NCBI GenBank assembly: GCA_913045175.1
Contig: CAJWQG010000001.1
Span: 1 to 64,000, forward strand
Length of the DNA stretch: 64,000 nt
Source of the DNA: an uncultured Gammaproteobacteria bacterium
GTDB lineage: Bacteria; Pseudomonadota; Gammaproteobacteria; Pseudomonadales; Azotimanducaceae
Direction of reading: 5' to 3'
In this document: one piece after another, positions 7,390-28,537 of the stretch
Numbering within the stretch: position 1 is the first letter of the stretch
Layout: every line of letters begins with the position of its first letter
Position numbers and translations under genes: made by a program
Notes under the pieces: model-generated
Databases searched by the model: none
What the model was told of the DNA's origin: nothing
Seen by the model: only the letters and a program-made list of their open reading frames with translations

Positions 7390-9993
7390 ATGACCCCCGA
7401 GGACTCCCAGACATTAATCGATGAGTTAGCGCCGGACCGTGTCGAGTGGGTCCAGGCGCTCGACGATATTTACAATGAATTTGGCGAGCGAGGCGTTCGG
7501 GAAATTCTGCGCACGCTGCAGGATCATGTATTGGACCGTGGCATTCCTCTGGCTGAAGCGACGCTTAACACGCCCTACATCAACTCAATTCTGCCTTCGG
7601 AAGAACCTCGTTATCCCGGGGACACCGAACTTGAAAAGAAGATTGAAAGTATTATCCGTTGGAATGCTATGGCCATCGTGTTGCAGGCAGTGGACGCCGG
7701 GATAGGGGTAGGGGGTCATATCGCCACCTACGCTTCTGCCGCCACGATGATGGAGGTTGGTTTTCATCATTTTTTCCGTAATCGAACGGACGAGTATGGC
7801 GGTGATATGGTGATGCCCCAGCCGCACGCCGCGCCGGGGATCTACGCCAGGGCGTATCTCGAAGGACGTTTAAGCGATGTTCAGATGGCGAATTTTCGTC
7901 GTGAGCTACAACCGGGCGGAGGGCTCTGCTCTTACCCGCATCCACGATCCATGCCTGATTTCTGGCAGATGCCAAACGCATCAATGGGATTGTCTACACC
8001 ATCGGCGATCTACCAGGCACGCTTTACCAAGTACCTGGAGAACCGCGGGCTAAAGCCTAAAAATGGTGGCAGGTTCTGGTGTTTTATCGGCGATGGTGAA
8101 TCCGATGAGCCCGAGGTGATGGGCACCATTAACATGGCCGCACGGGAAAAACTCGATAATCTGGTACTGGTAATCAACTGTAACCTGCAGCGCCTTGATG
8201 GTCCGGTGCGTGGAAACGGCAAGATTATTCAGGAACTGGAACGCAGCTTTCGCGGCGCTGACTGGAACGTGATCAAGGTGATCTGGGGCAGCGGATGGGA
8301 CGGCCTGTTGGCGCGAGATCATGACGGGGTATTGCGACGCCGCATGGAAGAGTGTGTCGATGGAGACTACCAGCGGTATTCCATTCTTCCTGGTGAAGAA
8401 CAGCGCGAACACTGGGTCGACGGCGACCCTGAACTGGCGCAGATGATGGACTCTCTGACGGATACTGAGATAAAGCAGATTCGTCGTGGTGGTCAGGATC
8501 CAAAGAAAATATATGCTGCCTATGCCAAAGCGTGCGACAGTGTTGATAAACCCACTGTGATTCTGATCAAAACGGTGAAAGGGGACGGCATGGGTGCCGA
8601 GGGGCAAAATACCGCTCACCAGAAGAAGGACCTCAGTGTCGAGGAACGTCTCGCCTGCGCCAGTGACTATGGCATACCGCTCTCGGAGGATGTCATCGCC
8701 AGGGCGGAGCTGTATCGTCCGGCTGACGATAGTCCTGAGGTGCAGTATCTGCAGCAACATCGTGCCGAACTCGGCGGTTACCTTCCGGAACGGCGTGTAG
8801 ATTGTATCCCGCTGCAAACACCATCCCTGGATTCATTGTCGGCGATTACCGGGGGTAGCGGTGATCGGGTGCTGTCGACCACCATGGTCATGGTAAGAAT
8901 GATTGCGACCCTGATGAGGGATAAAGCAATTGGTCAATATGTCGTGTCGATCGTTCCAGATGAAGCGCGCACCTTCGGTATGGACGGTCTGTTCAAGCAG
9001 GCCGGTATTTATTCTCCCGAAGGGCAACACTACACGCCCGTAGATGAGGGCTCGTTAATGTCCTATCGAGAGGCAGTGGACGGACAAATACTGCAGGAAG
9101 GAATTTGCGAGACCGGTGCGTTGGCTTCCTTCATGGCGGCAGGTACTGCCTATGCGGTACATGGCGTGCCGACCATTCCGTTTTATATTTTCTATTCCAT
9201 GTTTGGCTTTCAACGCGTAGGAGACATGATATGGGCTTGTGCGGATATGATGTGCCGCGGCTTCTTGCTCGGTGGCACGGCTGGCCGCACCACGTTGAAT
9301 GGTGAGGGATTGCAGCACCAGGATGGCCACTCGCTGGTCTTAGCCAGCACCGTGCCCAACCTCAAGAGCTATGATCCGGCCTTTGGCTATGAGCTGGCAG
9401 TCATTGTGCGTGATGGTATTCACCGCATGTACGAGCAGGACGAAAAGGTTTTCTATTACCTCACCTTATACAACGAAAACTATCCGATGCCGGCGATGCC
9501 AACAGAGGATGTCACGACAGGAATCATTCGGGGAGCCTATTGCTGGCGGCGAAGCGATATAAAGGGAGAACCGGTACACCTGCTCGCCAGTGGATCACTG
9601 ATGTCGCAAGCCATCTCCGCTGCACAGTCGTTGGAAGATAAAGGAATTGCCGCGCACATCTGGAGTGTTACCAGTTACACGGAGCTTGCGCGAGAAGCCG
9701 AAGACTGTGAACGATATAATCGTTCACACCCGGCAGAGCAACCGCGAGTGCCCTGCATAGAATCCTTGTTTGTCGATGAATCCGGACCGATCGTTGCTGT
9801 GACCGACTATATGAAAGCATTGCCCAATAGCATTGCTCGCTGGATGCCGGACACCTATACAACCCTGGGTACAGACGGTTTTGGTCTTAGTGAGGCGCGT
9901 GAAGATTTGCGCCAGCATTTTGAGGTCGATGACGAGCATATTGTCGAGGCTGTGCTCGCAGGGCTACGAAAGCTGTGGAAGCTCGCACTGTAA
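7390..9993 (+). CDS. aceE: 2-oxoacid dehydrogenase E1 component, homodimeric AceE/MdeB type
   Basis: Thiamine-diphosphate E1 of 867 residues (E. coli AceE has 887). It decarboxylates pyruvate, or 2-oxobutyrate in MdeB-type paralogues, and transfers the acyl group to an E2 lipoyl domain. The ThDP/Mg motif runs from 'GDGESDEPE' near residue 234 to 'NCNLQRLDGPVRGN' about 30 residues later. 'PTIPFYIFYSMFGFQRVGD' and 'TLNGEGLQHQDGHS' mark the central and transketolase-like domains. No aceF or lpd is adjacent, which is unusual for a housekeeping aceE. The divergent Lrp neighbour favours an MdeB-like role, with E2/E3 supplied from elsewhere. The symbol names the family and not a proven substrate. 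Confidence 0.9.
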   Translation: MTPEDSQTLIDELAPDRVEWVQALDDIYNEFGERGVREILRTLQDHVLDRGIPLAEATLNTPYINSILPSEEPRYPGDTELEKKIESIIRWNAMAIVLQAVDAGIGVGGHIATYASAATMMEVGFHHFFRNRTDEYGGDMVMPQPHAAPGIYARAYLEGRLSDVQMANFRRELQPGGGLCSYPHPRSMPDFWQMPNASMGLSTPSAIYQARFTKYLENRGLKPKNGGRFWCFIGDGESDEPEVMGTINMAAREKLDNLVLVINCNLQRLDGPVRGNGKIIQELERSFRGADWNVIKVIWGSGWDGLLARDHDGVLRRRMEECVDGDYQRYSILPGEEQREHWVDGDPELAQMMDSLTDTEIKQIRRGGQDPKKIYAAYAKACDSVDKPTVILIKTVKGDGMGAEGQNTAHQKKDLSVEERLACASDYGIPLSEDVIARAELYRPADDSPEVQYLQQHRAELGGYLPERRVDCIPLQTPSLDSLSAITGGSGDRVLSTTMVMVRMIATLMRDKAIGQYVVSIVPDEARTFGMDGLFKQAGIYSPEGQHYTPVDEGSLMSYREAVDGQILQEGICETGALASFMAAGTAYAVHGVPTIPFYIFYSMFGFQRVGDMIWACADMMCRGFLLGGTAGRTTLNGEGLQHQDGHSLVLASTVPNLKSYDPAFGYELAVIVRDGIHRMYEQDEKVFYYLTLYNENYPMPAMPTEDVTTGIIRGAYCWRRSDIKGEPVHLLASGSLMSQAISAAQSLEDKGIAAHIWSVTSYTELAREAEDCERYNRSHPAEQPRVPCIESLFVDESGPIVAVTDYMKALPNSIARWMPDTYTTLGTDGFGLSEAREDLRQHFEVDDEHIVEAVLAGLRKLWKLAL

Positions 9994-10792: not shown

Positions 10793-10936
10793 TTCCACGT
10801 CGATTCGATCGCACCGCTTGCGCGAGAAGCTGAAGACTGTGAACGACACAATCGTTCACACCCGGTAGAGCAACGGCGAGTACCCGTCGAGGTTGCGCTC
10901 GCAGGGCTACATAAATTAGGGAAGCTCGCACGATAA
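10793..10936 (+). pseudogene. Decayed remnant of an aceE-like 3' end
   Basis: Bases 10817-10883 closely match aceE 9685-9750 (both translate to 'LAREAEDCER.NRSHP.EQ'). Bases 10884-10936 match the last 51 bases of aceE ('LAGL.KL.KLA.' plus stop). The roughly 190 bases between these segments in aceE are missing. The reading frame is kept through the deletion to a TAA stop. Upstream, 'FHVDSIAPLARE' still aligns weakly with 'WSVTSYTELARE'. This is a rearranged leftover of a second aceE-type gene or a partial duplication. The rest of the 10671-11023 spacer shows no other gene. Confidence 0.75.
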
Positions 10937-11023: not shown

Positions 11024-12475
11024 ATGTCAGAACGAAATAGACAGATCAGTGCGAAAACAAAGTTCTCGTTCGCATCGGGTTCGCTTGAAGAAGCAATGAT
11101 TACCGCCGCCAGTGTGGCGACGATGATCTTCTACAATCAGGTTCTGGGTGTGTCGGCCGCTCTCTGCGGCACGGTCTTTTTGATCGCGAGTATGGTCGAT
11201 GCGGTATCGGACCCCTTTGTGGGCGCCTTGTCCGATAGCGTAAATACCCGGTGGGGCAGGCGTCACCCCTTTATGTTTCTGTCAGCATTTCCGATGGGCT
11301 TATTTTTCTACGGACTGTACCAACCGCCTTCAGGGTTGTCTGAGCATCAGCTGTTTCTGTGGTTCACGGTGATGATGGTCGGTCTGCGATTGTGCAAGAC
11401 CTTCTATGCCGTGCCGCACAGCGCCCTGGGCGCGGAGTTGACCGATAACTATGACGAACGAACTTCGATATTTGGCTGGAACTTCACGGTATATAGTATT
11501 GGTTCTGCGTTGTTGGGTGTATTTATTCTCTACGCCATCTTTCCGTCGGTGGAAGGTGTGGAAAATGGACTGCTACGGGAAGAGCAGTATCCCCTTCTGG
11601 CCGCGATTGGCGGCGCATTTGTCACCGCCGCGATACTCTTTTGCACCTTTACGACGGCCGACCAGATTCCTTACCTGCACGACACGAAATCCGTAGGTGA
11701 GCGTACTAAGCAGAACTTTAGAAGTTTCCTTAAAGACATATTCGGAAATCTATGGGTGCTGGTACATAACCCATCGTATATTTCTGTTTGTGTATGCTGG
11801 CTGATCCTGGCGATATGTGCCGGTCTGGTTGCCGTGGTGTCGACCTACACGTTTGTCTATGCATTCGAGTTTTCTACTGAAGAGATAGCCATTCGTGGAT
11901 TGATCGCGCTGCCGGGCGCCTTCCTCGGGGTGATTTTTTCGCGTTGGCTGGTCAATATTTTTGATAAAAAATATACCGTGATCTTCACGATTATGATCAC
12001 CGCCTTTCTACTTGCGCTCCCGTTCTGTCTGCGACTGATTGGCTGGTTTCCCGAGAACGGCACCATCTGGACGCTGATCGCATTCTTTGCAATCTGGACG
12101 CCCGCGCTGATCTTTTTACCCGTGGTCCCCATTGTTATCGATTCACAACTCGTAGACATCACCGACGAACATGAACTTCAGACGGGTAACCGATCCGAAG
12201 GCGTTATTTTCTCCATTCGAACGTTTGCCATTAAAATGACCTCAGGCTTGGGTGGGTTGATTGCAGGCTTTGGGCTGGAGCTCATTGGTTTTCCACAGAA
12301 TGCTTCGGTGGAAACGCTCGATCCGGCGGTGATCGACGGTCTGTTATGGATGATGGGTCCGGTTTACCTAGCTATTATCTATGCAGGACTTGGATTTGCG
12401 TTTCTCTACCGCATTGACCGAAAACGACATAAGGAAATTCTCGAAGAACTGGAACTACGTCGCGCTGTCGCATGA
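11024..12475 (+). CDS. GPH-family (MelB-like) sugar:cation symporter
   Basis: Polytopic transporter of 483 residues with about 12 hydrophobic segments. Glycoside-pentoside-hexuronide family hallmarks are the early 'ASMVDAVSDPFVGALSDSVN' loop with its conserved Asp residues, then 'RWGRRHPFMFLSAFP'. A second family motif region, 'AVPHSALGAELTDNYDERTSIFGW', follows TM4. It would import a glycoside or uronide with H+ or Na+. It stands alone on the plus strand with an isolated promoter, and a REP-like palindrome directly follows its stop. The substrate cannot be told; nucleoside hydrolase and fucosidase genes 25 kb away are possible functional partners. Confidence 0.85.
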   Translation: MSERNRQISAKTKFSFASGSLEEAMITAASVATMIFYNQVLGVSAALCGTVFLIASMVDAVSDPFVGALSDSVNTRWGRRHPFMFLSAFPMGLFFYGLYQPPSGLSEHQLFLWFTVMMVGLRLCKTFYAVPHSALGAELTDNYDERTSIFGWNFTVYSIGSALLGVFILYAIFPSVEGVENGLLREEQYPLLAAIGGAFVTAAILFCTFTTADQIPYLHDTKSVGERTKQNFRSFLKDIFGNLWVLVHNPSYISVCVCWLILAICAGLVAVVSTYTFVYAFEFSTEEIAIRGLIALPGAFLGVIFSRWLVNIFDKKYTVIFTIMITAFLLALPFCLRLIGWFPENGTIWTLIAFFAIWTPALIFLPVVPIVIDSQLVDITDEHELQTGNRSEGVIFSIRTFAIKMTSGLGGLIAGFGLELIGFPQNASVETLDPAVIDGLLWMMGPVYLAIIYAGLGFAFLYRIDRKRHKEILEELELRRAVA

Positions 12476-12566: not shown

Positions 12567-13007
12567 TTAGAGTAGGCTCTGCCGCATTTCGGTGCCAACC
12601 ACTTCCATGCCGTAACGCTCGTAGAAAGGGCGATTGTGTTCCGTTCGTTCGACCAGATAAAGTCCATATTCAGCACAGCCTCTCTGCCGTGCATTGTCGA
12701 TGGTGTGTTGCACTAGTAAGCCGCCGGCATTCTGTCCGCGCGCCGCGGGATCAACAATGAGTTCCTCCAGCTGGCAGTATTCGCCCTTGTATCGCATGGC
12801 GAGGTTGTAGCTAACAGTCGCCATACCGAGAACCGTATCGCCGTCGACAGCGACGAAGACTTCTCCTCTTTCATGGTTGAGCAGGCGTTCGAACACGGCT
12901 CGTTCGCCGTCGGCAGGCGTATCTTTGGGTGCCTTTCTGGGGGCTAGTAACAGTTCGATACGGCGATCGACATCCGGGGCCTCAGCGGCACGAACTGAAA
13001 TCGTCAT
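12567..13007 (-). CDS. GNAT-family N-acetyltransferase
   Basis: Acyl-CoA-dependent acetyltransferase of 146 residues, a normal length for a single GNAT domain. The central strand 'QLEELIVDPAARGQNAGGLLVQHTIDNA' contains the acetyl-CoA pyrophosphate-binding loop in the form R-G-Q-N-A-G. The C-terminal part 'YLVERTEHNRPFYERYGMEVV' is typical. Its start overlaps the stop of the upstream monooxygenase by 4 bases, so it is translationally coupled and the last gene of the aminotransferase-PhyH-BVMO unit. It may acetylate an amine produced or released by that pathway. Confidence 0.85.
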   Translation of the reverse strand: MTISVRAAEAPDVDRRIELLLAPRKAPKDTPADGERAVFERLLNHERGEVFVAVDGDTVLGMATVSYNLAMRYKGEYCQLEELIVDPAARGQNAGGLLVQHTIDNARQRGCAEYGLYLVERTEHNRPFYERYGMEVVGTEMRQSLL

Positions 13008-14632
13008 TTCTCTAGCGAGAATCCGTCGTAACCATTCTCGGCTACCTCAGTTATTCGTTCACGAAACTTCGGTGCACCTCCCCAAAAGATGAGATAGCGC
13101 AACTTATCGTGACCGTCTACATTGGAGTTGAACCCGGTAAACCAGCTCTTGGTATTGGCGATCAAGAGGCCCTCATAGTAACTCTTGATGGTCTCAACCC
13201 ATTCGTCTTCAGCTTCAGCGGTAGCTTCTATGCGGTGGTAGCCGTTTTCCTTAAGGTAGGCGACGAGATTGGCAGCCCAGTCCACAGCGTCTTCAATACC
13301 GCGGGGAAAATTGGATGATACGGATCCACTTTGTGGTCCTGCCAGTGTGATGAGATTGGGAAAATCGTGTGTTTGAAGGCCCAGGTAAGTGATGGGCCCG
13401 TCAGCCCATTTATCATTCAACCTGCGACCATCCACCCCGCTAAACTCCATCCTGTCGAATGCACCAGTGATCGCATCGAAGCCCGTCGCGTAAATAATTA
13501 GGTCGAATTCAAGCTCACCTTCGCTGGTGAGGATGCCTTTTTCAGTGCCTTCGACAATGGGGGTCTCATTGATATCCTTGAGATGCACATTGTCCCTGTT
13601 ATAGGCCTCGTAGTATTTGGTTTCCAGTGGCACTCGTCGAGTACCAAAACCATGATCCTTGGGAATTAATTTTTCCGCCACAACCGGATCGTTTACCCGT
13701 TCACGGATTTTTCCTGCAATAAACTCCGAGTACTCAGCGTTGGCATCCTCGTCCATAAAAATGTCGCGGAAGTTTGACAGCCAGACGCCAAATCCGCGCG
13801 ATGCATAGAGTTTTTCCCACAGAGCCAGGCGTTCCTCTCTCGGTACTTCTTTAAACTCACGTCGATCGGGCTGGTGAATGAAACTCCCCGGTGTCTTTTT
13901 GCAAAGCGCAAAGATCTCATCGTAAGAGGCTTTTATTTTTGCCTGTTCCTCGTCATCGATCGGACCGTTGTGTAACGGCGCACACCAATTGGGTCTGCGT
14001 TGAAAGACGGTCAGGTCACCCACCTTGTCGGCGATCTCTGAGATCACCTGTACGCCCGTCGCACCGGTGCCGACAACCGCGACTCGTTTGCCCTCGAGCT
14101 CAACGGGTGTACTTGGCCAGTAGTAGGTATGGAAGGATTCACCTTTGAATCTATCGACGCCGGGATACCTGGGCATTGTCGCAGCAGAGAGCATCCCAAT
14201 GGCAGTGAACAAAAACCGGGTTGTTACTTCACGCCGATCTTCCATACGCACAGTCCATACCTGGTTCTCATCATCCCAGGTACTCGCCTGCACATTGCAG
14301 TCGAACTGCATGTGGTCACGTAGTTGAAACTTCTCGACCACATATTGCAGGTAACGAAACGTCTCCGGCTGGCCGGAAAAATGCTCGCTCCAATCCCATT
14401 CCTCCAGGAGTTCCTTGGAAAAGGAGTAACCGTAGGTATAACTTTCCGAGTCGAAGCGTGCGCCGGGATAACGATTCCAGTACCAGGTGCCACCTGCGTC
14501 GCTGCCGCGCTCCAGTAAGGTTGCGTTGAGGCCCAGCTTCAGTAGTCGGTAGAGCATGTAGATGCCGCAGACACCGGCGCCGATAACGACGGCTTCGTAT
14601 TGTGGCGTGCCATTCTGGCTGGGTACGGCCAT
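13004..14632 (-). CDS. Baeyer-Villiger-type flavin monooxygenase
   Basis: FAD/NADPH monooxygenase inserting oxygen next to a ketone to give an ester or lactone. Features are an N-terminal FAD Rossmann motif (GAGVCG near residue 19), the class B BVMO fingerprint F-x-G-x-x-x-H-x-x-x-W-P in 'FKGESFHTYYWP' near residue 150, and a second nucleotide motif 'VGTGATG'. The ORF track starts at a GTG 12 codons upstream. I prefer ATG at 14632 because it leaves the usual short leader before the Rossmann fold. The length is about 540 residues. It is coupled to the GNAT gene and follows the interrupted PhyH gene. A paralogue lies at 52909-54531. Confidence 0.9.
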   Translation of the reverse strand: MAVPSQNGTPQYEAVVIGAGVCGIYMLYRLLKLGLNATLLERGSDAGGTWYWNRYPGARFDSESYTYGYSFSKELLEEWDWSEHFSGQPETFRYLQYVVEKFQLRDHMQFDCNVQASTWDDENQVWTVRMEDRREVTTRFLFTAIGMLSAATMPRYPGVDRFKGESFHTYYWPSTPVELEGKRVAVVGTGATGVQVISEIADKVGDLTVFQRRPNWCAPLHNGPIDDEEQAKIKASYDEIFALCKKTPGSFIHQPDRREFKEVPREERLALWEKLYASRGFGVWLSNFRDIFMDEDANAEYSEFIAGKIRERVNDPVVAEKLIPKDHGFGTRRVPLETKYYEAYNRDNVHLKDINETPIVEGTEKGILTSEGELEFDLIIYATGFDAITGAFDRMEFSGVDGRRLNDKWADGPITYLGLQTHDFPNLITLAGPQSGSVSSNFPRGIEDAVDWAANLVAYLKENGYHRIEATAEAEDEWVETIKSYYEGLLIANTKSWFTGFNSNVDGHDKLRYLIFWGGAPKFRERITEVAENGYDGFSLEK

Positions 14633-14716
14633 TAGAATTCTCTGATCATCGAGTCCATCGATTCTCACACACTTCTACTTTGCGCCGCAAACAAGCAAAG
14701 TGATACTTATTGAGGG

Positions 14717-15637
14717 TCAGTCGGATCCAATACCCACGGCACGGGGAAACGGCAGGGCGGGCGCTTGATAGGGGGCGCCGAAACCCGCCAGCGCTTTGAA
14801 GGTATCGGGATCGATACAATCTTCGGACAGTTCTCTTGAAAAATGGTTGGGAATATCGTCCTGGGGCATGATGGATGAGTGTCGGAAATAGTTTGAGATG
14901 GTAACTCGCAGGCCCGGTGTGGTTTTCGGGTAGGCGCCATGCCACAAGGCTCCGTGAAATGCGATCAGTGAACCACGCGGACACTCCACGGGTATAGCCT
15001 CATGCGCTGCATCCGGGGTGGGATGGCTGTTGCGTCGATGCGAGCCCGGCACAACGGCGAGGGACCCGCCTGCCTTATTGTAGTCCGTCAGTGCCCAGGT
15101 ACAGTTGGCATTAAGGGCTGTGTCGCCCCAGGGCAGTGGTACACCGCCTTGATCGCAGTGCAGACCCAGGGACTCACCGTAACCCTCGCCTTGCTATTTG
15201 ATAAACGAATTGAAGGAGCTGAAACGGGCGGCCCAGCTATCACCGAAACCCAGAAAGCGGCTGCTGCCAATCAGATGGCGAACGATCGCGATACTCGCAG
15301 GATTGACCGCCAGGTCGCGGAATGCGCGATGAATATTGCACAGTTGTATGAGTTGAAACTGGGCTGGTTTGACCCCGGAGATTTGCTCAAGGATGCTAGG
15401 GTAGTTGCCATAGTCGAGCTCGCACTCGGGACCGTCTGCCACGGTGAATTTGCAGCCAACGTATTTCTCGGATTCGTCGAGCAGGAGTTGGGTGAGTTCG
15501 TCGATCTGTCCGTTGGTCACGCCAGTGATGTCAGGTGGCACCACGGTATACCCCTGTTCGTCGATTTCTTTAATATACGGTTCAATGCCTAACGCTTTGA
15601 TGGTGTGCTCGAGCGCTTCCGCTCCTGTTTCGCTCAT
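14717..15637 (-). pseudogene. PhyH-family dioxygenase interrupted by one in-frame TAG
   Basis: Two ORF-track pieces (15194-15703 and 14717-15052) are in the same frame, separated only by a TAG at 15194-15196. Reading through gives a complete PhyH protein of about 306 residues. The iron ligands are HxD in 'GLHCDQ', a few residues after the stop, and a distal His in 'LWHGAYPKTTPGLR' with the 2-oxoglutarate Arg. The best start is MSETGAEALE at 15637, since the longer start would overlap the aminotransferase. The rest of the frame looks intact, so this is a recent nonsense mutation, a sequence error or a suppressed codon. It lies in the aminotransferase-BVMO-GNAT operon. Confidence 0.8.
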
Positions 15638-15671: not shown

Positions 15672-17030
15672 CTACACGCGCTTGCAAACACCCGCAAAGT
15701 CATACCTGTTGAGGACCGACTCTGTGGTTGTCAGGATCCTATCGAAATCACTTTCGTTGTGCGCAAAGGACATATAGATGTGGTTTGAGGTGGGAACCGA
15801 AAGGAAGATGCCTTCGTTAATCATCGCCAGGTAAAACAGTTCGATAAGGTCGTCGTCGAGGTCGAAACGGTTTTGGAAGTTAACTGCTTCGCTGGAGAAA
15901 TAAAGTACCAGCATCGAGCCCAGTCGGTTGATCTGCGCGGGGATATTGTGCAGCTCGAAAGCTGCTGCCATATCTTCCCTGAGAACTTTGGCTCGGTCGT
16001 TGAGCTGCTGATACCCCTGAGCTCCGAGTTCTTCATAGGTTGTCAGTGCACCGATAGCCGCGGCAAGTGCTGAGTTGCCATCGTTCATGGTGCCGGACTG
16101 ATAGACCCGCGGGGTGCCCCGTGGTGCTTCGGGGTCGACCGTGCTCATGATGTCTTCGCGGCCTGCGACGACCGCGAGTTTCTCGCCAGCTGCAACCGCT
16201 TTAGCATAGGTCGCAATATCCGGCATGACATTGAAAAATTCCTGTGCACCACCGGGTGCGAGGCGGAAACCGGTGATGACTTCATCGAAAATAAGGAGCA
16301 CACCTTTTTCCTGCGTGAGTTCTCGCAGCACGATGAGGAAGTCCTTATGGTCTTCTCTTCCCCACAGTCCACTGCGGTGCATCGCCGGGTCGAAGATGAC
16401 TGCAGCGGTGTCATCGTCCAGTGCCTGACGCACTGAATTAATGTTGGTGTATTCGGCGGTGTTGATATCGACGATGGCATCCCTGGGTATACCCGCTGAC
16501 GCGATTGCACGAGACCCATTCAGCGCGAACAGGACGGCGTCATCCTGGCCATGGTAGTGACCGTAGAATTTCAGGATTTTGCTTTTGCCGGTGAAAGCTC
16601 GGGCTATACGCAGCGCCGCAATTACTGCTTCCGTACCGGTGTTAAGAAATCGTACCCGTTCTGCACAAGGTACCAGCGTGGTGATTTTTTCAGCCACATC
16701 GATGAGCGTGCTCGGATTGAAGGGTAATGATCCCTGGGCTTTATGGTCCTCAATGCTCGCGACCACCGCAGGATGATTGTGACCCAACATCATGGGTCCA
16801 TTGGCACTAAAGCAATCGATATATTCGTTGCCATCTACATCGGTAATTTTGGATCCCTGGCTGCTTTGGGTGTAAAGCGGATAGGGTGAGAAAAATCGCA
16901 GATTGCCTGATACACCGCCCGCTAAAGATTTTCTTGCTCGATTGAATAGTTTGTCCGAGTTAGGGGTCTTTGCGCGGTAGTCAGAGAAGATACGGTCTCT
17001 AAGCTGGCTGAGCTTGTCCTCTGCTGGCAT
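15672..17030 (-). CDS. Class III PLP aminotransferase, glutamate-1-semialdehyde aminomutase-like
   Basis: Fold-type I PLP enzyme of about 452 residues. It has 'DVDGNEYIDCFSANGPMMLGHNHP' at the N-terminus, 'FLNTGTEAVIAALRIAR' for cofactor binding, 'LLIFDEVITGFRLAPGGAQ' with the PLP-pyridine Asp, and the candidate Schiff-base Lys in 'YAKAVAAGE'. It is related to HemL, but its operon of PhyH, BVMO and GNAT indicates a special pathway and not tetrapyrrole synthesis. The track start is GTG at 17051; ATG at 17030, preceded by GGGAA, looks better. It is first in its operon and sits just downstream of the palindromic operator. Confidence 0.87.
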   Translation of the reverse strand: MPAEDKLSQLRDRIFSDYRAKTPNSDKLFNRARKSLAGGVSGNLRFFSPYPLYTQSSQGSKITDVDGNEYIDCFSANGPMMLGHNHPAVVASIEDHKAQGSLPFNPSTLIDVAEKITTLVPCAERVRFLNTGTEAVIAALRIARAFTGKSKILKFYGHYHGQDDAVLFALNGSRAIASAGIPRDAIVDINTAEYTNINSVRQALDDDTAAVIFDPAMHRSGLWGREDHKDFLIVLRELTQEKGVLLIFDEVITGFRLAPGGAQEFFNVMPDIATYAKAVAAGEKLAVVAGREDIMSTVDPEAPRGTPRVYQSGTMNDGNSALAAAIGALTTYEELGAQGYQQLNDRAKVLREDMAAAFELHNIPAQINRLGSMLVLYFSSEAVNFQNRFDLDDDLIELFYLAMINEGIFLSVPTSNHIYMSFAHNESDFDRILTTTESVLNRYDFAGVCKRV

Positions 17031-17079
17031 GAGGCGTTCCCGGGTTGACACGCATCGCAGTCTGCATGTTTACTTCTGC

Positions 17080-17113
17080 CACTTCAACACGTCGAAGTGT
17101 TGCACAACACTTC
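17080..17113. promoter_or_regulatory. Palindromic operator in divergent promoter
   Basis: GAAGTGTTG-CA-CAACACTTC (17094-17113) is a 9-2-9 perfect inverted repeat. A further CACTTC half-site at 17080-17085 pairs with the left GAAGTG. It lies between the divergent aminotransferase operon and the PhyH-MFS-TetR operon. This is the size and form of a TetR operator, so the TetR encoded at 19361 is the obvious candidate to bind it and control both directions (inference). Confidence 0.7.
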
Positions 17114-17168
17114 TTAGATCAGTTCACCAATCGTGCGATGAATGCAAAACAGAATTCGGAGCTATTCT

Positions 17169-18050
17169 ATGAGTGAAGCAGAAAACACACAGTTACAGGT
17201 ACCTAAAATCCTATACGACACACGTGAACCATTTGATCTCACGGACGATCTTCAAGCCAAAATAGAGGAGCTCGATCTTGTCGAGGCGGTCGAGCATGTA
17301 AAAGAGTATGGCTACGGCTATATTTACGATGCAGTCACGCAGGAATTTGCAGAGCGATTACGTGAGACCATTATTCGCATCGCGAATTCACCAGACGGTG
17401 CAATCGGTATCGACACCGGGGCGAATATGCTCCTGGCCAAAGATCCAGTATTCGAGGAAGGGGTGTTGAATCCCAAGATTCTGGCGATAGTCGAAGTTCT
17501 TTGTGGGAAGGGCGCCTTGCTTTCGCAGGTAGCGGGTTCCGTTAAGCCAAAGTCTGCGCCTGATCAGCCTGCCGTTGGCGGTTTGCACGCCGACCAGAAT
17601 TGGACGCCCGCACCATTCCCTGTACACAACCAGATGGTGACATTCTGTTGGGTGTGCGACGACTTTTCTGCCGAGGGCGGCTCCACAAAGGTGGTTCCCA
17701 AATCGCATCTTTTGCGCCGTCACCCTAACGATCAGGAAGTTGCTGAAGAAGAGGGTATCGTCTCAACCGAATGTCCCGCAGGGTCCGTCGTGTTCTGGGA
17801 TGGTTCATCCTGGCATTCGGGCGGCGGGCTACGAACGATTGATGGTGAGCGCGTTGTGCTTCATGTTACCTATAGCCGGCTGGCGCTCCGACCGGTAGAA
17901 AACTATGACTTCCTCGGGGATGACTGGCTTGCGGATAAACCCTACGAGATGCGCGTTGTACTCGGACGTGAGGATTTCCTCGCTACCCCTGATGGCGGGT
18001 TCGCCCATGGTGAGAAACTGGAGCGGACGTTTGCCTGGTCGAAGGAATAG
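17169..18050 (+). CDS. PhyH-family Fe(II)/2-oxoglutarate dioxygenase
   Basis: Predicted 293-residue oxygenase. Iron ligands are HxD in 'GLHADQNW' (about residue 140) and the distal His in 'SSWHSGGG'. The 2-oxoglutarate-binding Arg is probably in 'GERVVLH'. The double-stranded beta-helix core includes 'FCWVCDDFSAEGGSTKVVPKSH'. The start at MSEAENTQ is chosen over the track start because CGGAG lies upstream. It heads a plus-strand unit with an MFS exporter and a TetR. Its N-terminus ('VEHVKEYGYGYIYDA...ERLRETI') closely resembles the PhyH proteins at 22133 and 27626. PhyH enzymes hydroxylate acyl-CoAs or varied natural products; the substrate is unknown. Confidence 0.9.
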   Translation: MSEAENTQLQVPKILYDTREPFDLTDDLQAKIEELDLVEAVEHVKEYGYGYIYDAVTQEFAERLRETIIRIANSPDGAIGIDTGANMLLAKDPVFEEGVLNPKILAIVEVLCGKGALLSQVAGSVKPKSAPDQPAVGGLHADQNWTPAPFPVHNQMVTFCWVCDDFSAEGGSTKVVPKSHLLRRHPNDQEVAEEEGIVSTECPAGSVVFWDGSSWHSGGGLRTIDGERVVLHVTYSRLALRPVENYDFLGDDWLADKPYEMRVVLGREDFLATPDGGFAHGEKLERTFAWSKE

Positions 18051-18083: not shown

Positions 18084-19328
18084 TTGATACGTGTCTGGTT
18101 TGCCACCACCTTTGAGGCCTTAGGGAATCCACGGTTTCGACTGCTGTGGACAGCATCGCTGTTTTCAATGTTGGCCTTCATGATGCAGTGGACGCTGATG
18201 GCGGTGGTGGCCTTCGAACTCTCTGGTACCAACACGGCAGTGGGTCTGGTGCAGTTGGGTCTTGGTCTGTCGATGCTGATCCTTGGTCCGTTCGGCGGTG
18301 TTTTTGCAGATCGCGTCTCAAAGAAACCGTTAGTAATCTGGGGTGAAGCGCTTATCGGCGCTTCTTTCGCTGTCACCGGGGTCATGATTCTTACTGGCAC
18401 ACTCACATTGTTCTGGCTTACGGCACTGACCGCGGTCATGGGTGTGGTGTATGCGTTTCTTGGTCCTGCCCTGCAAGCCTGGGTAGCAGAAGTCGTACCG
18501 AGGACCATCTTGCCCAATGCGGTTGCGCTCAATCAACTCGCATCCAGCGCCAATCGTGTACTTGGCCCTTTTGTAGCAGGACTGATGCTCGGCAGCGCAG
18601 TGATTGGTTCTGGAGGCGCCTACCTTTTTATGGGGGCGCTGTTCGTGATGGTTGTGCTCACGGTCTCTCGGCTTCCAGCCACCACGCCCAAGCTGGATGC
18701 GGAACGTCGTGCTGTCTCAGTGGAGCTGATGCAAGGCATTCGTTACGTTGTGCGGAATCCTGTCATTCGTACGTTGATGCTGCTTTATATGACAGTGGTT
18801 GCTGTTGGATTTATGTGGCAAATCGCTTTGCCAGCCTTCCTTGAACGACACCTGGATCGTTCGCCCACTGATGTTGGACTCATTTTTACCATCAACGCGA
18901 TCTCATCGTTGGTGGCGATTGTGCCACTGACCGCAATTGTTGGGACCCGCTGGGCCTGGCCGGCAATGTATGTCTGTATTGGGCTATTGGGTGTCGGATT
19001 CTTCATGCTTGCCGTCGCCTCAACATTCACGATGACGGTGGTCGCAACGCTCGCCCTGGGTCCGGGAATGTCCGGATTCATACTGCTCAATAATACCCTA
19101 ACGATGGCTAATACTGACGCCGGTTTCTTTGGTCGCGTGATGTCTCTAACAATGCTGGCATGGGGATTTCAGGCAGCAACAGCGTTGCCATTCGGTATGC
19201 TGGCGGATGCTTTTGGTGAGCGTGAAATGCTGTGGAGTTTTGGCGCACTGCTTTTGGTCATCGCTTTTGTGTGTGGGTGGACCACCCGTAACCTGCAAAG
19301 GCAATCCTTAAATGTCAGTGAGCTTTGA
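18084..19328 (+). CDS. MFS transporter, EntS/DHA3-like exporter
   Basis: Major facilitator protein of 414 residues with about 12 membrane segments. The N-terminus 'FEALGNPRFRLLWTASLFSML' and 'GLGLSMLILGPFGGVFADRVSKKPLV' (the loop 2-3 signature of drug/siderophore exporters) match the MFS_3/EntS group. It starts with TTG 33 bases after the PhyH stop and is followed within 32 bases by a TetR gene, so the three form an operon. A likely role is export of the pathway substrate or a toxic intermediate, induced through the TetR. Confidence 0.85.
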   Translation: MIRVWFATTFEALGNPRFRLLWTASLFSMLAFMMQWTLMAVVAFELSGTNTAVGLVQLGLGLSMLILGPFGGVFADRVSKKPLVIWGEALIGASFAVTGVMILTGTLTLFWLTALTAVMGVVYAFLGPALQAWVAEVVPRTILPNAVALNQLASSANRVLGPFVAGLMLGSAVIGSGGAYLFMGALFVMVVLTVSRLPATTPKLDAERRAVSVELMQGIRYVVRNPVIRTLMLLYMTVVAVGFMWQIALPAFLERHLDRSPTDVGLIFTINAISSLVAIVPLTAIVGTRWAWPAMYVCIGLLGVGFFMLAVASTFTMTVVATLALGPGMSGFILLNNTLTMANTDAGFFGRVMSLTMLAWGFQAATALPFGMLADAFGEREMLWSFGALLLVIAFVCGWTTRNLQRQSLNVSEL

Positions 19329-19360: not shown

Positions 19361-19975
19361 ATGTCAGAACCTATCCCCATACGCCAACAGCGCAAAGCGG
19401 AAACCCGTAACAAACTGATTACGGCTGCTAAGGAGCTCTTCGAAAAACAGGGCTATGAGTCCACTACCCTGGAAGGCATTGCAGAGCGCGCAGGGTTACA
19501 CGTGCAGACGCTGTATCGGCATTTCGGCAGCAAGGTTGAACTGGCTGCCGCCGGTGAAGAAACACAACTCGACCATTTTCGTGGGGCTATCAGGGATGAA
19601 AACCGTGAAGGTTCAACCATTGAATTCTGGCGCCAATATCTGGGCGGCCTCGCACATCGGGTTACCGATAGGGATGGCGGTAGAAGCTATCGGGATGTAT
19701 TGCACTATGAATTGGAGTCGCCAGCTGTATCCTTCCGTCTGGCGCAACTCAGCCAGGAGTATAAGGATCTGTTTGCCGAATCCCTGGAAGAAGACCTAAG
19801 TATTGAAGACTCAGAGGAACGTCGAAATACAGCACGACTGATTGTCATTACTTTATGGGGTGCCCATGAGTATGTGATGGCGCGATACGATCAGGACGTT
19901 GGTTTTGATCTCGCGACCGAATCAGTGGCTATGATTGATCGTGTAGAGCAGCTCTTCGCACATCTTTTGCAGTAG
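19361..19975 (+). CDS. TetR-family regulator
   Basis: Repressor-type protein of 204 residues. The N-terminal helix-turn-helix (about 12-60) has the recognition helix in 'GLHVQTLYRHFGSK'. The C-terminal ligand-binding domain is diverse ('SYRDVLHYELESPAVSFRL'). It is the last gene of the PhyH-MFS-TetR unit and probably autoregulates it through the palindrome at 17094-17113. It shares the HVQTLYR recognition helix with the TetR proteins at 26704 and 60384, which suggests common ancestry within the island. Confidence 0.9.
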   Translation: MSEPIPIRQQRKAETRNKLITAAKELFEKQGYESTTLEGIAERAGLHVQTLYRHFGSKVELAAAGEETQLDHFRGAIRDENREGSTIEFWRQYLGGLAHRVTDRDGGRSYRDVLHYELESPAVSFRLAQLSQEYKDLFAESLEEDLSIEDSEERRNTARLIVITLWGAHEYVMARYDQDVGFDLATESVAMIDRVEQLFAHLLQ

Positions 19976-26704: not shown

Positions 26705-27405
26705 TACTCATCTCTCTTAATATTTTTTGTGGGCTTATGCCTAGGGATTGTAGGCGGTTCCTTTCCGACCGCCAGCATGTTGGCGGATTTCCACAATTGC
26801 ATCAGCTTGTACACGTCGTCGACGACCCCGGTGACTATCTCGACCAAATCGCTTCTTCCCTGATTGAGTACCCACTTTTGTGCGGCGTGATGGTTTCCTT
26901 CCCACAGCATGGCGGCAAAGAGTCTGGGGTAATGGCTGGTCTTTGGGTCGAGGGACAGTTCATCGGCGAGACCGTTTTCCAGCAGATCGAGGTACTCGTT
27001 TGCAAGCGCGTGGAATTGACTCATAACGGCCGGCGTTTGCAAGCTGCGCTTTCTTTGCAGATAGATCTCTCTATACATGGTTTGCGTCGTGTTCGAACTC
27101 GTTGCTGTCCACTCGCGCCAGAAGCTGGTAAATGGTAGCTCCGGATCCTTTTGACGAACCGCGGCTTTGAACAAATCGAGATTATCCTGTTCAGGTGCTG
27201 TTGCCAGCAATTCCTTACTGGGGAAATATCGGTAAAGCGTCTGAACGTGCAGGTTCGCCCTTTCGGCCACGGCCTCTAGTGTCGTTTCGGCATACCCGAG
27301 TTCCGCAAAGAGTTCTACTGACGCCTGCATCAGCGCGGCTCGGCTCTTTAATCTCCTGGATCGCTTGCTTGGGGGCTTCGCTGCAGGGGCATGATTTGGG
27401 TTCAT
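26704..27405 (-). CDS. TetR-family regulator
   Basis: Regulator of 233 residues starting at MNPNHAPAAK; the longer track start runs back through promoter DNA. The basic leader 'KRSRRLKSRAAL' is followed by a helix-turn-helix with recognition segment 'NLHVQTLYRYFPSKE'. The C-terminal domain shows the aromatic-rich pattern of small-molecule sensors. It is divergent from the PhyH at 27626 and heads the NTF2-esterase unit. The 22-bp palindrome at 27558 in the shared promoter is its likely operator, and a copy of the core at 29560 suggests it also governs the SDR/TonB promoter. Confidence 0.9.
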   Translation of the reverse strand: MNPNHAPAAKPPSKRSRRLKSRAALMQASVELFAELGYAETTLEAVAERANLHVQTLYRYFPSKELLATAPEQDNLDLFKAAVRQKDPELPFTSFWREWTATSSNTTQTMYREIYLQRKRSLQTPAVMSQFHALANEYLDLLENGLADELSLDPKTSHYPRLFAAMLWEGNHHAAQKWVLNQGRSDLVEIVTGVVDDVYKLMQLWKSANMLAVGKEPPTIPRHKPTKNIKRDE

Positions 27406-27557
27406 TTCGTTGCAGTGCCTCCGAGCGGCGTCATGCACGTGACAAGGTAAGCAGGCCTGTTGCCACCGGTCATGTCGTATCTTCGTTTTGTTTGCAGCCT
27501 GAAAGTTACCATGGTTATAGGTTGAATAGTTAGAAACCAACTCAAGTTCGACGTTCG

Positions 27558-27579
27558 TACTTTACTATATAGTGTAGTA
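27558..27579. promoter_or_regulatory. TetR-type operator, TACT-N2-ACTATATAGT-N2-AGTA
   Basis: A 22-bp near-perfect palindrome with a perfect 10-bp core ACTATATAGT (27564-27573) and outer TACT/AGTA arms. It lies 47 bases upstream of the PhyH start and in the divergent TetR promoter. The same core is at 29560-29569 ahead of the TonB receptor/SDR pair, and a degenerate form is at 32257-32275. Assignment to the TetR at 26704-27405 is inference from position. Confidence 0.65.
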
Positions 27580-27625
27580 TCATTTTTGGCATCCGGATAG
27601 ACAGGTAAATAAAACCGAGGAAGGT

Positions 27626-28537
27626 ATGAATAGTCTTGAGCAATACAAGGACTCATCTCATTACCGGAAAATCTACGAGCAAATCGAAACACTCGGTCTC
27701 GTTGAACACATCAATCATCTGGATGAATACGGATACGCGGTCATTCCTTCCGAACTGGTTGCCCCCGAGGAATTCCAGGATCGCTTGCGTCAGGCGGTAC
27801 TCGATGTCAATGAACGAAGGACCGGACAGAAGATCGATCTCAAAGATATTGAAACAGCCAAACTCAGCCGGGATGCACCGGGTGAAGGGCATTGGGGACT
27901 TCTCACCGAGGACCCGGTGTTTCAGGAAATGCTCATGAACCCCACGGTGCTCGCCATGGGGAAATACCAGTGTGGTAACAGCGCTTTATTGAGTGACATG
28001 CTTTGCATACTGAAACACAAGGATGAACGGTTTACACATCCACTACATACCGATCAACACGGTACGCCGCCACCTCTGCCGCCTTACGCGCAGGTCAGCA
28101 ATGTGACCTGGACGTTGACCGACTACAAGGTGGGCAACGGACCGGTTGCCATTGTACCCAAGAGTCATTTGAAAGGGCGCTACCCGTTGCCCGAAGAAGG
28201 CAACTTTCTGCGCGAGGATGCGCCGGTTAAACCGATTCCCATCGAGGCAGCCGCCGGGTCGCTGATCGTCTGGGACGGCAGGACGTGGCACGGTTCATAT
28301 CCGCGGGAAAATGAGGGTTTGAGAATGAACGTCATCCTGGTCTTCACGCGGGTCTATATGAAGCAGATTCGCGATTTTCGCAGTACGGTTCCGCAAGAGA
28401 TACTCGATCAACACCCGGTTGAGTTCGCGCACCTTATCGGCGCCAACAGTATGTACCCGTTCAGAGATGGCAAACCGCCAGCAACTAAAGAAGAAAACGC
28501 CTATATGATGGCGGCAGGCTACAATCCTTGGGCATAG
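27626..28537 (+). CDS. PhyH-family Fe(II)/2-oxoglutarate dioxygenase
   Basis: Oxygenase of 303 residues. The iron ligands are HxD in 'PLHTDQHG' (about residue 140) and the distal His in 'RTWHGSYPRENEGLR', whose last Arg probably binds 2-oxoglutarate. 'VTWTLTDYKVGNGPVAIVPKSH' lies in the beta-helix core. The ATG has a strong GAGGAAGG upstream. It is divergent from a TetR and controlled by the ACTATATAGT palindrome. It belongs with the 17169 and 22133 proteins by its N-terminal 'EYGYAVIPSEL...DRLRQAV'. The C-terminal extension 'NAYMMAAGYNPWA' is specific to it. Confidence 0.9.
   Translation: MNSLEQYKDSSHYRKIYEQIETLGLVEHINHLDEYGYAVIPSELVAPEEFQDRLRQAVLDVNERRTGQKIDLKDIETAKLSRDAPGEGHWGLLTEDPVFQEMLMNPTVLAMGKYQCGNSALLSDMLCILKHKDERFTHPLHTDQHGTPPPLPPYAQVSNVTWTLTDYKVGNGPVAIVPKSHLKGRYPLPEEGNFLREDAPVKPIPIEAAAGSLIVWDGRTWHGSYPRENEGLRMNVILVFTRVYMKQIRDFRSTVPQEILDQHPVEFAHLIGANSMYPFRDGKPPATKEENAYMMAAGYNPWA

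Follow-up and report, generated by a model that had tools for sequence, protein, structure and literature searches.

A putative local TetR operator between two divergent oxygenase operons of an uncultured gammaproteobacterium

Gene content of the locus

The DNA analyzed here (referred to as the window) is a 64-kb stretch from an uncultured gammaproteobacterium. It contains two divergently transcribed groups of genes separated by a short intergenic region with a palindrome array (Table 1). Judging from sequence comparison with a relative from the same genus (G001), the aminotransferase that heads the leftward operon probably starts at the ATG at 17030 (a GTG at 17051 reads CTG in G001), while the rightward PhyH gene probably starts at the ATG at 17169, which lies behind GGAG, the upstream ATG at 17142 not being kept in G001. 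With the starts moved to these positions, the non-coding gap comprises 138 bp. The TetR-family protein encoded at 19361-19975 is the sole regulator in both operons.

G001 keeps the synteny of the aminotransferase and the PhyH-MFS-TetR genes at 80-90% protein identity. In its leftward operon, however, the gene of the Baeyer-Villiger-type monooxygenase (BVMO) comes immediately after that of the aminotransferase, without a PhyH gene between them. In the window two imperfect direct repeats (15684-15714 and 14687-14715, 25/31 identical) bracket the PhyH gene interrupted by the amber codon; the latter of them seems to be a decayed duplicate of the aminotransferase gene's 3' terminus. This arrangement fits a later insertion of the gene in the source lineage, a deletion in G001 being a possible alternative; under insertion and deletion alike, the comparison indicates that the gene is not a conserved or core member of the unit. 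The first-pass annotation had tied the amber-interrupted gene, together with the exporter and the monooxygenase, into one regulon; for this gene the assignment proves to be positional only.

Table 1. Genes, half-sites and predicted promoters at the locus
Feature	Position	Strand	Remarks
GNAT acetyltransferase	12567..13007	-	PF00583 (Pfam); 83% identical in G001
Flavin monooxygenase, Baeyer-Villiger/FMO type	13004..14668	-	PF00743 (Pfam); 88% identical in G001
PhyH-like gene with in-frame TAG at 15194-15196	14717..15637	-	Not in the corresponding G001 operon
Class-III aminotransferase, glutamate-1-semialdehyde-aminotransferase-like	15672..17030	-	PF00202 (Pfam); NCBIfam, below the hemL cut-off; G001 orthologue 81% identical; leads leftward operon
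Predicted promoter of PhyH-MFS-TetR: TTGACA (17045-17050), 18-bp spacer, TTTACT (17069-17074)	17045..17074	+	Score 11.3, best on + strand
Weak candidate promoter of aminotransferase operon: TTGAAG (17087-17082), 17-bp spacer, CAGACT (17064-17059)	17059..17087	-	Score 6.5, best on - strand
O1: CACTTC-AACACGTC-GAAGTG	17080..17099		Inverted repeat; 19/20 in G001; pattern unique in both genomes; proposed main operator
O2: GAAGTGTTG-CA-CAACACTTC	17094..17113		Perfect palindrome named in the first-pass annotation; GAAGTG common with O1
Third half-site CACTTC	17108..17113		At the 14-bp pitch of the array; CAGTTC at the same place in G001
PhyH-family dioxygenase	17169..18050	+	PF05721 (Pfam); 88% identical in G001; leads rightward operon
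MFS exporter	18084..19328	+	PF07690 (Pfam); 90% identical in G001
TetR-family regulator	19361..19975	+	Pfam TetR_N; 82% identical in G001; ends rightward operon; proposed binder of O1/O2

The palindrome array, predicted promoters and conservation

The palindrome and the additional CACTTC reported in the first-pass annotation are present exactly as described there. The palindrome (O2) consists of two perfectly matching 9-bp arms separated by 2 bp, and the "extra half-site" lies at 17080-17085. Together they form an evenly spaced 34-bp array (17080-17113) of the form CACTTC-N8-GAAGTG-N8-CACTTC, whose hexamers (17080-17085, 17094-17099 and 17108-17113) follow each other with a constant pitch of 14 bp. 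The array corresponds to two overlapping 20-bp palindromes, O1 (17080-17099) and O2 (17094-17113), with the middle half-site GAAGTG common to both. The arms of O1 (17080-17088/17091-17099) are complementary at 8 of 9 positions, the outer hexamers being perfect and the interior imperfect.

A search for perfect inverted repeats in the window (arms of at least 9 bp, spacers 0-10) revealed 5 cases versus 2.5 expected, hence a palindrome of the O2 type is not rare over 64 kb. As a putative operator, O2 with the extra half-site is fairly described as "one of the best operators in the window". Two of the other four (9706 and 42630) are located in long open frames, one (49053) is outside any long frame, and one (10838) belongs to a degenerate repeat of the terminal part of the large gene at 7390-9993. 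This repeat lies at 10816-10931, upstream of the transporter gene at 11024, and corresponds to the 3' end (9684-9988) of the large gene (91% identity over 70 bp and 83% over 46 bp), which explains why the palindrome TGTGAACGA..TCGTTCACA occurs at both 9706 and 10838. For a 138-bp stretch of the same composition, the probability of one such perfect palindrome is 0.006 and that of an equally spaced triple of the array type about 5e-5; both nulls are generous to the array, because they were computed after the pattern was seen.

A weight-matrix scan identified a strong predicted promoter of the rightward operon with hexamers identical in G001 (score 11.3 in both species, null P = 0.008) and a transcription start predicted near 17081, within O1. 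A simple consensus scan of the region reported no promoter; it misses the rightward one because position 2 of the -10 hexamer is T. The best leftward candidate also has the same hexamers in both species and its -35 element is inside O1, but its score is not above chance (null P = 0.36). Thus, palindrome O1 lies at the predicted transcription start of the TetR protein's own operon, and the evidence for control is stronger for the rightward operon alone than for the two operons together. The earlier proposal that the site controls the two units jointly is consistent with its position between the divergent groups and over the best predicted promoter; its leftward half is weakened by the chance-level score of the leftward promoter.

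Comparison with G001 revealed that 45 of the 48 bases at 17055-17102 are identical, versus 63% (689/1101) of the four-fold degenerate sites in seven genes of the locus (P = 7e-7; P = 0.008 if the single gene with the highest conservation, 80%, is taken as the reference). O1 is identical at 19 of 20 positions (P = 0.001). The right arm of O2 reads CAGCAGTTC in G001 if aligned without gaps, with 7/9 positions agreeing with the palindrome, while in the MAFFT alignment it is lost in a 12-bp gap; these two readings are not separable with confidence. Since O1 is kept and the right arm of O2 is degraded or lost, the left palindrome is the conserved element. The first-pass annotation had placed the signal in the perfect palindrome at 17094-17113, with the left hexamer as an addition to it; what G001 keeps is the palindrome at 17080-17099 instead. 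This comparison rests on G001 as one informative relative, and a scan of our genome collection found no second close orthologue of the locus beyond it; in this single relative that keeps the locus, O1 is conserved together with the orthologous TetR.

Scope of the site and its candidate regulator

The exact 20-mer of O2 occurs once in the 3.67-Mb genome. The pattern CACTTC-N8-GAAGTG has one match in the source genome and one at the orthologous position of G001, and is absent from the five other members of the genus. It was found in 18 of 207 genomes of the family and in 50 of 392 genomes of the order (a chance rate of about one genome in ten); the matches, as listed, differ from O1 in the inner bases and look like background by their sequence. 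A scan of 369 genomes of the class with the O1 sequence returned background only, and no plasmid copies of the site were found. Allowing up to two mismatches, the source genome contains 132 matches to the forward pattern, compared to 162 for the reversed-pattern control. Of the 12 one-mismatch sites 10 are within long frames, and the remaining two, one flanked by a likely tRNA and a rimP-like gene and the other upstream of a flagellin-like gene, look like chance matches. The region preceding the second PhyH gene (22133) contained no palindrome at the score used, and no site like O1 precedes the GPH-type transporter at 11024. With one match of the O1 pattern per genome and no excess of near matches, most of the one-mismatch sites being in long frames, the dispersed regulon anticipated in the first-pass annotation was rejected, and the data point to a single local operator.

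The product of 19361-19975 contains an N-terminal TetR helix-turn-helix domain (PF00440, E = 3.8e-16). Its structural model comprises 10 helices (mean pLDDT 90), with an all-helical C-terminal ligand-binding domain, and the best match in the PDB is 7pt0 (SCO3201, TM 0.76), with further TetR-family regulators among the matches. By its domain and by the predicted fold, it is a genuine member of the TetR family; the solved structures among its relatives are distant ones only. The recognition helix, HVQTLY, is invariant across 19 TetR sequences (relatives and paralogues).

Homologues of the 19361 TetR adjoin orthologues (65-79%) of the GPH-type transporter, which in the window is encoded at 11024-12475, at three loci (L077, 4628-6730; L087, 3610-6177; L086, 890-3274). 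This suggests an older link between this transporter and the 19361 regulator. In addition, ACTATATAGT is found upstream of another TetR gene (26809-27372) and of its homologue in the genome G002 (window 27372-27626; L026, about 4380), and is a candidate operator that precedes another PhyH gene.

We favor, with moderate confidence, the interpretation that the TetR encoded third in the rightward operon uses the 34-bp array as its local operator, and we consider the 19361 protein the likeliest, if putative, binder of O1. The reading that comes closest to it assigns the array to a regulator encoded elsewhere, while the local TetR binds another sequence, e.g. one related to ATAG-N4-CTAT. A palindrome TAG-N4-CTA is present in 6 of 22 regions upstream of TetR relatives and paralogues that share the HVQTLY helix (about 1.4 expected by chance), although this count is exploratory, as the pattern was spotted by eye before counting. 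The instances are upstream of TetR relatives in L026 (two), L028, L078, L081 and L084, and some are strongly palindromic; examples of the ATAG-N4-CTAT form are GAGATAGTTGACTATCTC in G002 and AACATAGCCAACTATGTT on contig C6. On sequence grounds, TAG-N4-CTA is a possible operator of the subfamily. The CACTTC-N8-GAAGTG pattern was not seen upstream of the TetR relatives of 40-52% identity, and the idea that O1 represents an operator common to them was rejected for this reason. However, TAG-N4-CTA, exact or with 5/6 positions, was found in none of the four regions from the locus and its G001 counterpart, and the uniqueness of the O1 pattern in the genome is better suited to a dedicated local regulator than to a global one. 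Altogether, we consider binding of the array by a regulator encoded elsewhere unlikely.

Slightly less likely again is that the conserved promoter block (17045-17102) alone is functional and O2 is a lineage-specific accident of the local sequence. The degraded or gapped right arm of O2 in G001 and the frequency at which perfect palindromes of this size arise by chance in 64 kb agree with such an accident, but the null for an equally spaced triple in the 138-bp region does not, and the right arm in G001 still retains 7/9 positions with the same spacing (random P = 0.001), even if common descent alone could account for it. Finally, it is highly improbable that the palindrome functions at the RNA level, as a hairpin of the PhyH leader (an attenuator, a processing or a stability element). 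It would be part of the predicted 5' leader and could pair into a stem of 8 bp closed by a loop of 4 bases, but the fold of the leader is not more stable than that of shuffled sequence (z = +0.73), no terminator-like T run was found, and the right side of the stem is poorly kept in G001, in contrast to O1, which would straddle the start and is well kept.

Proposed mechanism and comparison with known systems

If the array is the operator of the local TetR, binding of a TetR dimer to O1 would block initiation at the rightward promoter, resulting in autorepression, and the bound protein would probably also cover the -35 element of the weaker promoter of the leftward aminotransferase operon. The 19361 TetR would probably regulate its own expression and possibly repress the divergent operon as well. 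The repressor would be released by a ligand, which may be the cargo of the exporter or a compound consumed or formed by the oxygenases. The third half-site creates the second, perfect palindrome in the source genome, which would be expected to make binding tighter or to provide another position for the protein. O2 is likely a lineage-specific second palindrome beside O1, and the array an ordinary local TetR operator. One may also speculate that the three half-sites provide a choice, in which a single TetR dimer occupies O1 or O2, and not both fully, with O1 shutting both promoters and O2 leaving the leftward one open; we regard this as quite improbable, but if true, the two oxygenase operons would be controlled to different degrees.

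The array represents a specific, testable putative operator for an uncharacterized group of oxygenase and exporter genes in a gammaproteobacterium, whose two operons are probably controlled locally, and the analysis reassigns the conserved signal to the left half of the palindromic array. Our literature search found no paper that combines TetR, phytanoyl-CoA dioxygenase, operator and palindrome.

The 19361 TetR resembles its same-genus homologues associated with ATAG-N4-CTAT in subfamily, in the sequence of the recognition helix and in the presence of a palindrome near the tetR gene, but the half-site sequence and the spacing at the 19361 locus are different. As a caution for the prediction of TetR sites, the same recognition helix may go with different operators.

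TetR-family regulators commonly repress their neighbors via palindromes in short intergenic DNA of under 200 bp (Streptomyces survey, PMC3511530). The locus is similar to autorepressors of the TetR/tetA type in that a TetR_N protein has an exporter and enzymes as its likely targets, and in that a palindrome covers the predicted promoters in a short intergenic region, the start-to-start gap being 138 bp here. It differs from this paradigm in that tetR comes last in one of the divergent operons and is not itself divergent.

In outline only, the presence of two overlapping inverted repeats in one putative operator also resembles the operators of QacR and of FadR from Sulfolobus acidocaldarius, in which overlapping inverted repeats are bound by two dimers (PMC6449355). 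However, of the two palindromes in the window only O1 is well conserved, and O1 and O2, with centers 14 bp apart, have a whole half-site in common, so that two dimers would probably be unable to use this half-site at once.
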